A program made the translations under genes and the position numbers. Source: a bacterium (GTDB lineage: Bacteria; Patescibacteriota; Minisyncoccia; UBA6257; JAGOQP01). Taken from it: 45,740 nt of DNA. Shown in pieces: positions 19,085 to 23,119 of this stretch (position 1 is its first letter; every line of letters starts with the position of its first letter). The notes beneath the pieces were generated by a model. That model was not told the origin of the DNA. It ran no database searches and worked only from the letters and a program-made list of their open reading frames with translations. The stretch spans positions 1 to 45,740 of the forward strand of contig JAJYXK010000013.1 of NCBI GenBank assembly GCA_021801825.1, read 5' to 3'.

Positions 19085-19138
19085 GAAAAATGGGCGTGGT
19101 GTTGTTTTTTTGCTCATTTTCTTATATTCTTGTTTCAT

Positions 19139-20530
19139 ATGAAACTTTGGATAAAAGATATTGTACATAAAGTTGATGAGACGGTACTTCTCGCAGGATG
19201 GGTTGCAAACCGTCGTGATCATGGAAAGCTTATTTTTATTGATTTGCGTGATCGAAGTGGGGTTTGTCAGGTGGTATTTGGTCCATGGTCTGGAGAAGAA
19301 ATTTACTCCCAAGCACAAAAATTGCGTAACGAATGGGTAATTCAGGTTGAGGGTTTGATAAAAAAACGACCCGATACCATGGTAAATCCTGATATTATAA
19401 CCGGAACTGTTGAGGTTGAGCCAAAAACTTTAGTAATTATGAATGAAGCAAAGACCCCACCGTTTCCGCTTGAGGGAGATGGGTATGATATTGATGAGGA
19501 TTTGCGTATGAAATATCGCTATCTTGATTTACGCCGCGAGCGTATGAAGAAGAATTTACTATTACGCAGTAAGGTATTGCAGCTCATTCGTGAGTTTATG
19601 ATACGTAATGATTTTGTAGAAGTTGAAACGCCAACACTCACCAAGTCTTCTCCAGAAGGCGCGCGTGATTTTCTTGTGCCATCACGATTGCAACCCGGAA
19701 AGTTCTACGCGCTTCCACAAGCTCCACAACAGTACAAACAACTACTTATGATTGCGGGGATAGAACGATATTTTCAGCTTGCGCACGCAATGCGCGATGA
19801 AGATCTTCGGGGAGATCGACAACTTGAGCATACACAAATAGATCTTGAAATGTCATTCACGACCGAGCAAGAGGTGCGTGATCTCGTAGAGAACCTTATG
19901 ACATATGTTGCAGAATCATGCGGGAAGAAAATCTTACAAAAACCATTTCCAGTTTTCACGCATGAGGAGGCGATGAAAAAATTCGGCGCGGATAAATTTG
20001 ATCTACGCGAACACAAAGATCCAAATATAATGGCGTTTGCATGGGTTATTGATTTTCCGCTCTTTGAGTGGGATGAAAATGCTAAGCGGTATACTTTTGC
20101 GCATAATCCGTTTTCTGCTCCAAAGCCCGAATGTGTGGAGCAGGTATTACGCAAAGAAGATATGGGTAATTTACGTGCTCAGCAATTTGATTTGGTATGT
20201 AATGGATATGAACTTGCCTCAGGAGGGGTCCGTATTTCAGATCCAGCAGTGCAAAGAAAGATTTTCGAGATCATGGGACTTTCAGAGGAGGAAACGGAAA
20301 AAAGATTTGGACATCTCATTCACGCGTATGAATATGGAGCACCTCCACACGCAGGAATGGGGCCTGGATTGGATAGATTTATTATGCTCTTAGCGGGTGA
20401 ACCAAATATTCGTGAGATAATTGCGTTCCCAGTTTCATCGAGTGGACAAACTTCCGTAATGGATGCCCCCTCAGAGATTGAAGAAAGGCAGCTAGAGGAG
20501 TTATATATTGAAATCCGTCACAAAAAATAG
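19139..20530 (+). CDS. aspS: Aspartyl-tRNA synthetase
   Basis: OB-fold N-term WVANRRDHGKLIFIDLRDRSGVCQVVF; RYLDLRRERM; FVEVETPTLTKSSPEGARDFLVPSR; GMGPGLDRFIMLLAGEPNIREIIAFP. Start 19130 or 19139. Confidence 0.93.
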   Translation: MKLWIKDIVHKVDETVLLAGWVANRRDHGKLIFIDLRDRSGVCQVVFGPWSGEEIYSQAQKLRNEWVIQVEGLIKKRPDTMVNPDIITGTVEVEPKTLVIMNEAKTPPFPLEGDGYDIDEDLRMKYRYLDLRRERMKKNLLLRSKVLQLIREFMIRNDFVEVETPTLTKSSPEGARDFLVPSRLQPGKFYALPQAPQQYKQLLMIAGIERYFQLAHAMRDEDLRGDRQLEHTQIDLEMSFTTEQEVRDLVENLMTYVAESCGKKILQKPFPVFTHEEAMKKFGADKFDLREHKDPNIMAFAWVIDFPLFEWDENAKRYTFAHNPFSAPKPECVEQVLRKEDMGNLRAQQFDLVCNGYELASGGVRISDPAVQRKIFEIMGLSEEETEKRFGHLIHAYEYGAPPHAGMGPGLDRFIMLLAGEPNIREIIAFPVSSSGQTSVMDAPSEIEERQLEELYIEIRHKK

Positions 20531-20571
20531 TAGTGTTATAAGCATTATTTACTAATTATTATAATCCATAT

Positions 20572-21648
20572 ATGAAAGGAGTATCTTTTCCTTTGTTCAA
20601 AACAAAACTTGAAAACGAATCAAAGAAATTTAACTTGGAGGATCCGATAGGACGCAAGGAATATTTTGTTACCAAAGCTCAACCAGATATTGAAAAAATT
20701 AAAGAATATTTAGATGGTGGAAACACCTTTTTAGCAATTCTGCTTGGAAAGAAAAATTCAGGTAAGGGAACGTATTCAAAACTATTTGCAGAGGCAGTTG
20801 GAAAGGAGCGTGTTTTACATATATCGGTGGGGGATATGGTGAGAGAGTTAGATACTATTGTGCATGACGAATCGCAACGAGCGGAACTTGAAGAATTTCT
20901 TAAAAAACACTACCGCTCTTCAATGCCACTGGATGAAGCGTTGGAAGCTATAAAGTCTCGCTCTACCCAATTTTTGTTGCCAACTGAGTTAATTCTTTCT
21001 CTCTTGCGTCGTAAGATTGAGAATGTAAAAGGAAAAGCAATTTTTATTGATGGATTTCCAAGAAATCTTGATCAGATTTCATATTCACTTTATTTCCGTC
21101 AGATTATGGGATTTAAAGATGACCCAGACTTTTTTGTGTTTATTGATGTTCCGGAAAATATTATTGATGAACGCATGAAATATAGAGTTATCTGTCCTAT
21201 TTGTCATGTACCACGCAATCCTCGTTTGTTAAAAACAAAGGACGTCGGATATGATGCTTCTACAAAAGAATTTTATTTAATGTGTGATGATCCTGCGTGT
21301 AATAAGTCCCGCATGGTTCCAAAAGAAGGAGATAGTCTTGGGATAGAAGCGATCCGAGAACGTATTGAGTTAGATGACACTATTATGCGTTCATTATTAG
21401 ATATGGATGGGGTGTCAAAAATATATCTTCGTAATGCATACCCTGTTTCTGAGGCTCCTACATATATTGCTGACTATGAAATAACCCCTGGATATTTCTA
21501 TTCGTGGGATGAGGCAAATCAAAAGGTAATTACCGAAGAAAAGCCATGGACAACGTTTGATGAGAATGGAGTTGAATCATACAGCCTTTTCCCTGCTCCT
21601 ATTGTTGTTTCTCTTTTGCATCAAATAGCAGAGAAGTTAAGCTCGTAG
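20572..21648 (+). CDS. Adenylate kinase family protein with N-terminal extension and Cys-containing lid
   Basis: LAILLGKKNSGKGTYSKLFAEAVG; IFIDGFPRNLDQ; CPICHVPRNPRLLKTKDVGYDASTKEFYLMCDDPACN. Confidence 0.8.
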   Translation: MKGVSFPLFKTKLENESKKFNLEDPIGRKEYFVTKAQPDIEKIKEYLDGGNTFLAILLGKKNSGKGTYSKLFAEAVGKERVLHISVGDMVRELDTIVHDESQRAELEEFLKKHYRSSMPLDEALEAIKSRSTQFLLPTELILSLLRRKIENVKGKAIFIDGFPRNLDQISYSLYFRQIMGFKDDPDFFVFIDVPENIIDERMKYRVICPICHVPRNPRLLKTKDVGYDASTKEFYLMCDDPACNKSRMVPKEGDSLGIEAIRERIELDDTIMRSLLDMDGVSKIYLRNAYPVSEAPTYIADYEITPGYFYSWDEANQKVITEEKPWTTFDENGVESYSLFPAPIVVSLLHQIAEKLSS

Positions 21649-21677
21649 TTGACTTTTCTGCCTTTCGGGTGTATCTT
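21649..21677 (+). promoter_or_regulatory. Sigma70-like promoter for rpmB leader
   Basis: TTGACT (21649-21654), 17-bp spacer, TATCTT (21672-21677). Confidence 0.55.
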
Positions 21678-21683
21678 TCGGCT

Positions 21684-21809
21684 AGAGTCCTACTAATATT
21701 TTTCCGAATCAAATATTAAGTTTAGGGAGGACGAATCTATGCATACCGAGGTATTCATATGAGTCCACCCACCTGACATATAGTCGGGAAAAACTTTCAG
21801 TAGGGCTCT
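21684..21809 (+). ncRNA. Structured RNA / candidate 5' leader upstream of rpmB
   Basis: Closing helix agagtcctact (21684-21694) : agtagggctct (21799-21809); internal helices aatattt:aaatatt, ggac+atgcatacc:ggtattcat+gtcc, cctgac:gtcggg. Confidence 0.6.
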
Positions 21810-21828
21810 TTTAACTCGTTTATTTTTT

Positions 21829-22017
21829 ATGAAAACCTGTTCAATCTGCAATAAGGGATCGCAAATGGGTGGAACTCGCATAAAATTGCGTGGAAATTAT
21901 AATCCAACAAACTGGTCTCGCAAATATCCAAATTTACAGAAAACAAAAACCGCGAAAGGAGAGCGTGTGATTGCGTGTACCAAGTGTATTAAGAGAATGG
22001 CAAAGGACGCAAAATAA
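21829..22017 (+). CDS. rpmB: 50S ribosomal protein L28
   Basis: CSICNKGSQMGGTRIKLRGNYNPTNWSRKYPNLQKTKTAKGERVIACTKCIKRMAK. Confidence 0.8.
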   Translation: MKTCSICNKGSQMGGTRIKLRGNYNPTNWSRKYPNLQKTKTAKGERVIACTKCIKRMAKDAK

Positions 22018-22134: not shown

Positions 22135-22175
22135 GTCCAAGATTTTTGACGATCGTCAAAAATCTTGGACTTTTT
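22135..22175. terminator. Perfect 36-nt palindrome with T tract (terminator-like)
   Basis: gtccaagatttttgacga/tcgtcaaaaatcttggac followed by tttttg. Confidence 0.55.
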
Positions 22176-22288: not shown

Positions 22289-23119
22289 ATGAAACCACGT
22301 CTTGTAAAAGCATCGGGAGAAATAGAATCATTTAATGAGAAAAAACTTGCCGAATCATTACGTCGCGCAGGAGCCTCTCGCAAACTTATTTCTCATACAC
22401 TTGCCGTAGTTCGTCCGAGAGAAAATCAGAAAGTTACTACGCATGTTTTGTATAATAAAGTTTTTAATACTTTGTGGAAGCTAGATAAGGGAACCGCGCA
22501 GCGATATTCACTCAAGCGTGCAATTATGAATCTAGGTCCAGCGGGACACGTGTTTGAGTCATTTGTGGGCCGTATCTTCCAGGAGCATGGATATGAGGTT
22601 CGTGTAGCGCAGATAGTGCAGGGAAAATGTGTAGCTCATGAGGTTGATGTCTTGGCGCGTAAAGAAAATAAACACTACATGATTGAGTGCAAATATCATA
22701 ATCAGATGGGTGTTCGATCTGATGTGAAAGTAGCGCTGTATACCTATAGTAGATTTCTAGATATTAAGTCTGCGTGGGAAATGTCGGAAAAAGGAGGGGA
22801 TATTCACCAAGGATGGCTTATTACAAATACTCGTCCGACTTCAGAAGCGATTGCGTATGCGGAATGTGTGGGGGTTCGTATTATTGCGTGGCGGTATCCG
22901 CGGGGAGCTGGACTGGATTATTTCATAGAATCAAAACAGTTATATCCGGTAACTATTATCCCTTCATTTCCTACCTCTATGGCGGAAAAAGCTTCAAACG
23001 ATGGAATTTTATTGGTCCACGACATATTACAAAAACGTCCCGAAGAACTTGCTCATTTATTTATGATTGATATGCGTCAAGCGCAACGTATTTTAAATGA
23101 AGCAAGGGCGTTAGGGTAA
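22289..23119 (+). CDS. ATP-cone domain fused to Mrr-like restriction endonuclease fold
   Basis: VKASGEIESFNEKKLAESLRRAGAS (ATP-cone); FESFVGRIFQEHGYEVRV...HEVDVLARKENKHYMIECKYHN (D..ExK nuclease core). Confidence 0.8.
   Translation: MKPRLVKASGEIESFNEKKLAESLRRAGASRKLISHTLAVVRPRENQKVTTHVLYNKVFNTLWKLDKGTAQRYSLKRAIMNLGPAGHVFESFVGRIFQEHGYEVRVAQIVQGKCVAHEVDVLARKENKHYMIECKYHNQMGVRSDVKVALYTYSRFLDIKSAWEMSEKGGDIHQGWLITNTRPTSEAIAYAECVGVRIIAWRYPRGAGLDYFIESKQLYPVTIIPSFPTSMAEKASNDGILLVHDILQKRPEELAHLFMIDMRQAQRILNEARALG

Follow-up and report, generated by a model that had tools for sequence, protein, structure and literature searches.

The window, the whole stretch of 45,740 nucleotides that was analysed, carries at 21684..21809 of the + strand a region of about 126 nt that appears to code for a compact 6S (SsrS) RNA; a covariance model built from relatives, R1, matches it at 21685-21808 with 109.4 bits, and the relatives also provide the link to the Rfam 6S family, RF00013. 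Its neighbours are an aspS-like class II aminoacyl-tRNA synthetase gene (19130-20530), an adenylate-kinase-like gene (20572-21648) and, on the downstream side, an rpmB-like gene (21829..22017, + strand) that starts 19 nt after the 3′ end of the RNA and codes for a 62-aa protein without Pfam match, the name L28 being that of an earlier, sequence-only reading; an ATP-cone/Mrr-like gene (22289-23119) follows. The proximity of an aspS-like gene to the 6S gene (window 19130-22017) is seen in the window's family and recurs in further families of the same order. Between the rpmB-like and the ATP-cone/Mrr-like genes, a perfect 34-nt palindrome, TCCAAGATTTTTGACGATCGTCAAAAATCTTGGA, occupies 22136-22169 and is followed by a T-rich run; it may act as a terminator or bind a protein.

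The sequence-only reading had proposed a structured RNA of about 126 nt with its own promoter upstream of rpmB, and all the elements it described are indeed in place. The sigma-70-type promoter (21649..21677, + strand) comprises a -35 box, TTGACT (21649-21654), a 17-nt spacer and a -10 box, TATCTT (21672-21677); the predicted +1 lies at about 21684, where the closing helix begins, as had been claimed, and the promoter keeps this distance in the relatives. No Shine-Dalgarno-like sequence is present in 21810-21828, between the RNA and the L28 ATG, again in agreement with that reading.

The RNA, whose parts are all given on the + strand, is closed by an 11-bp helix formed by AGAGTCCTACT (21684..21694) and AGTAGGGCTCT (21799..21809), with two-sided covariation in each of the 10 modelled pairs. 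The AU-rich 5′ strand of the central bubble (5′-CB, 21695..21724) contains the conserved CCGAAUCAAA (family form CCGGAUCAAA, alignment A5) and leads to the apical, -35-like arm, whose two strands, GGGAGGAC (21725..21732) and GTCCACCC (21763..21770), are supported by covariation and pair as GGG-A-GGAC/GTCC-A-CCC, i.e., seven pairs around an A.A mismatch; the 3′ strand is the start of the ACCCACCUGG motif, and the RF00013 consensus has the same CCCACCU. The apical hairpin ATGCATACC-GA-GGTATTCAT (21739..21758; helix 3) covaries on both sides in 8 of 8 modelled pairs. The 3′ strand of the central bubble forms the hairpin CCTGAC-ATATA-GTCGGG (21772..21788; helix 4), at the same position as a hairpin of RF00013, and is followed by the 3′ strand of a P2-like inner helix (21789..21798), in which AAACTT (21791-21796) can alternatively pair with AAGTTT (21718-21723). 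Of the three helices that had been proposed besides the closing one, the GGAC/GTCC arm, longer than described, and the apical and CCTGAC hairpins were thus retained; an AATATTT/AAATATT helix within the 5′ bubble was rejected as a family feature, not being robust against a reversed-segment control (p = 0.1).

The 126 nt from 21684 to 21809 fold with -41.2 kcal/mol, compared with -24.8 ± 3.5 kcal/mol in dinucleotide shuffles (z -4.68; 0 of 200 shuffles as good), while a longer stretch of 202 nt beginning at the promoter has a z of just -1.19; thus, the boundaries of the RNA matter. Analysis of 70 order-level relatives bore out the covariation expected of a conserved fold: pairing holds in 94.3% of the cells of the four modelled helices, against 71.7% in shuffled and 34-56% in slid alignments (50-56% when partners are slid by one column), and double changes occur in 26 of 31 pairs. 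RNAalifold on its own predicts a nearly identical structure; both this prediction and the covariation count use an alignment fitted to R1, which is biased towards the R1 structure, and the compensatory changes, with 500 double-change cells versus 116 in shuffles, far exceed what such an alignment should yield. Helices 1-3 covary and the 5′ bubble is unpaired, which gives the closing stem, central bubble and apical arm of the 6S rod, and helix 4, paired in 89.7% of cells and with double changes in 4 of its 6 pairs, corresponds to the small hairpin in the 3′ bubble strand of 6S RNAs of the B. subtilis type. The inner helix, AAGAU/AUCUU in many relatives, extends the closing stem and matches the 6S helix P2 in place; real partners score a mean of 4.84 versus 3.73 when permuted (sd 0.10; p = 2.8e-8 versus reversed segments), and the pairing is weak in the window RNA itself. 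Pairing of the kind needed for bubble collapse moderately exceeds the controls across relatives (p = 1e-4 versus reversed and 0.006 versus shuffled segments, with relatedness incompletely controlled) and is suggestive only.

The genomes reached via the L28 protein are of Parcubacteria type (Wolfebacteria, Harrisonbacteria, Colwellbacteria, Liptonbacteria and others). When 149 relatives were searched at the DNA level, the RNA was matched over nearly its full length in one further genome of the genus and elsewhere in part only; these matches sufficed to seed a covariance model. The loci compared by eye have one common RNA, with a GAGYCC.../...GGGCUC stem, a GGGAGGRC...GYCCACCC arm and a CCUGRC...GYCGGG element. 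Model R1 was built from 15 aligned order-level sequences, without phylum-level ones, and has a match, nearly always one per genome, in 147 of 199 order genomes and 46 of 191 phylum genomes. The broader model R2 finds, again nearly always singly, 156/199 (order, E <= 0.01) and 84/191 (phylum, E <= 0.1); since its seeds include the phylum hits of R1, this higher count is an extension and not an independent test. No model match was obtained in 43 of the 199 order genomes, some of them nearly complete. Antisense matches of R1 reflect the self-complementarity of the rod and were excluded from later alignments. More than one copy is present in G097, with tandem compact 6S copies about 220 nt apart, both with good scores (G097:C1:131645-131769 and 131987-132110), possibly a 6S-1/6S-2-like pair, and in the phylum-level G252, with 6S-like copies on two contigs (G252:C1:6222-6343 and G252:C16:2405-2529).

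The RNA had been described as not matching any recognised class, a statement that proves wrong in view of the coincidence of R1 and RF00013 matches in relatives. With a limit of E <= 10, RF00013 still has no direct match to the window RNA, nor did scanning the window against Rfam give anything relevant; the matches to Phage_DGR, rimP and STnc370 were at chance level. Among the 149 relatives, none exceeds the RF00013 cut-off of 46.4 bits, and the weak matches of G075 and G123 fall inside each genome's single R1 match. Across the phylum, RF00013 matches 20 of 191 genomes, three of them above the cut-off. Genome-wide, both models score in 11 genomes, and in all 11 they coincide in place and strand (G075, G123, G210, G215, G247, G249, G255, G291, G295, G373 and G382), including G373 (55.4 bits) and G255 (48.2), which are above the RF00013 cut-off. 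Conversely, R1 scores all 12 fetched RF00013 loci with E from 1.3e-9 to 0.025, that of G237 (60.2 bits) included, and RF00013 with laxer filters gives 42.5, 40.4 and 38.2 bits at the strong R1 matches L103, L105 and L110, and 20-24 bits at the order-level loci L018, L019 and L008. The core common to the RF00013 alignment and the compact RNA consists of the GGG arm, CCCACCU and the 3′-bubble hairpin. The coincidences, the construction of R1 without phylum-level sequences and this common core make the identification firm, and indirect for the window, where covariance-model homology to known 6S RNAs is reached through intermediates. These results suggest, with a probability of about 0.94, that the window RNA is the compact-form 6S RNA (SsrS) gene of a Parcubacteria-type bacterium, standalone, with its own promoter and normally in single copy; homology to the Rfam family, structural conservation, promoter and copy number are each supported by sequence analysis.

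The sequence-only reading had left two possibilities, a standalone small RNA or an autoregulatory leader of a ribosomal protein gene, and the comparison of relatives favours the first. The -10 box lies upstream of the closing helix, mostly at a distance of 10-13 nt in the 70 relatives, of which 34 reach a promoter score of at least 9/12, versus 3.7 in shuffles; in 28, an intrinsic terminator follows the RNA at a distance of up to about 90 nt, where shuffles predict 0.3. According to the alternative, the RNA would be a cis-acting leader bound by L28, which would thereby repress its own translation. Indeed, the window has rpmB directly beside the RNA, an arrangement shared with several relatives in its family and some outside it, and no terminator was found between the two in the window, so that they may share a transcript in this genome. 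However, rpmB is not beside the RNA in many relatives, namely at several loci of the order and at most of those from the wider phylum; in L032 and L033 the two are over 100 nt apart; and the position upstream of a ribosomal protein gene is not constant, as it would be for an autoregulatory leader. The absence of rpmB and the frequent presence of the RNA's own terminator in relatives argue that the RNA is not an rpmB leader, and this reading, also in conflict with the homology to 6S, is very improbable. Positioned promoters, terminators and varying neighbours point instead to the independence from any one neighbour gene that is typical of 6S. In L032, L033 and L054, inverted repeats around a spacer end directly at the rpmB ATG (start 2001; in L032, for example, CCCAGTAACTTTACTTTA...TAAAGTAAAGTTACTGGG-ATG); they may represent an rpmB leader or an insertion that has nothing to do with the 6S RNA.

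The RNA could also be a divergent form of another housekeeping RNA missed by Rfam, i.e., SRP (4.5S) RNA, tmRNA or RNase P RNA. Searches of the window's own genome, G000, the window included, with RF00169 and RF01854 yielded no SRP RNA even at E <= 10, which leaves one housekeeping RNA unaccounted for; either a missing contig or a divergent SRP RNA may explain this. The window RNA, however, matches neither of these bacterial SRP RNA families and differs in fold, being a closed rod with a large asymmetric bubble and a 3′ bubble hairpin; moreover, 6S is the sole Rfam family recurrently scoring at its position in relatives, and L106, L107 and L110 have a canonical RNase P RNA apart from it, and this explanation is considered highly unlikely. 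An Ms1-like RNA, i.e., another polymerase-binding RNA such as the one of actinobacteria, would have a 6S-related shape, and Ms1 is an example of a 6S-shaped RNA that binds core polymerase (PMC9130861), but it is about 300 nt long with extra 5′ and 3′ hairpins (PMC9130861), none of which is present in the model of the ~126-nt window RNA, which is homologous to 6S proper, and Ms1 is absent among the Rfam matches, making this proposal highly unlikely.

In the published systems, 6S RNA sequesters the sigma-70/sigma-A polymerase during stationary phase and dissociates upon synthesis of a pRNA (PMC8876501, PMC8414754). By analogy, the window 6S RNA would fold into a rod whose central bubble mimics an open promoter; the rod would bind RNA polymerase containing the housekeeping sigma factor and block transcription when growth stops. 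Once nucleotides are back, the polymerase would start at about 21709-21710 and copy the 5′ bubble strand in the direction of the RNA 5′ end, and the short pRNA, 5′-(G)AUUCGGAAAAAU..., would open the P2/closing helix; the 3′ strand set free in this way would then base-pair with the distal part of the 5′ bubble, with release of the enzyme. The template position of the first pRNA nucleotide (21709..21710, + strand) is predicted from the hallmarks of pRNAs, which are GG at positions 4/5 or 5/6 and an A just upstream of the start (PMC8414754): a start at U21709 would give a pRNA reading AUUCGGAAAAAU, with GG at 5/6, and one at C21710 would have the A just upstream. The CCGGAUCAAA-type motif is common in relatives and fits GG at 5/6 or the upstream A, not both at one start; either U21709 or C21710 is the predicted start. 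Three sigma-70-family matches, one of them within a 467-aa frame, are found in the own genome, and these proteins may be the targets of the 6S RNA. A length of about 126 nt should in principle be sufficient, since artificial 6S-1 variants of 78-82 nt retain binding and pRNA templating despite a roughly tenfold loss of affinity (PMC8876501). A further idea, which we regard as rather unlikely, is that a minimal 6S of about 126 nt is a near-universal regulator in the order and, in some families, also the promoter-proximal part of the rpmB transcript; if true, such a dual-role RNA would connect polymerase idling with ribosome supply.

The window RNA is thus of a known kind, compact and divergent in sequence, and out of the reach of the current Rfam model in the order. 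6S RNA, undetected by the standard model in these lineages, would be present in most of the sampled order genomes and in much of the sampled phylum, offering a natural minimal 6S to set beside the artificial truncations, and small-genome organisms could be searched for this global transcription regulator. No open-access paper was found in which 6S RNA and any of the names Parcubacteria, Candidate Phyla Radiation or Saccharibacteria appear together; for Patescibacteria there was one, mentioning each term once.

Compared with the 6S RNAs of RF00013, the window RNA is shorter, about 126 nt against the published 160-200 (PMC8414754), has short arms and is below Rfam detection; it shares with them the closing stem, the asymmetric central bubble, the GGG-closed apical arm and CCCACCU followed by the 3′-bubble hairpin, as well as the normally single copy, the sigma-70 promoter and the coincident model matches. 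The E. coli 6S RNA (ssrS-fau) is different in length (183 nt) and out of reach of model R2, which gives no match to it, and its 9-bp 3′-bubble hairpin forms only on unwinding of the downstream helix (PMC8876501); however, according to its record, its gene immediately precedes a protein gene in the same orientation, just as that of the window RNA precedes rpmB. B. subtilis 6S-1 RNA has much longer apical and closing arms, but in its free form it contains a small 3′-bubble hairpin, and its collapse pairing joins the distal 5′ bubble and the P2 3′ strand (PMC8876501); similarly, the window RNA has a 3′-bubble hairpin and a possible collapse helix between AAACUU of the 3′ strand and AAGUUU of the distal 5′ bubble. 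Finally, GG at positions 5/6 is described for the pRNAs of LAB, close relatives of the 6S-1 pRNA (PMC8414754), and the window pRNA would have it as well if its start is at 21709.
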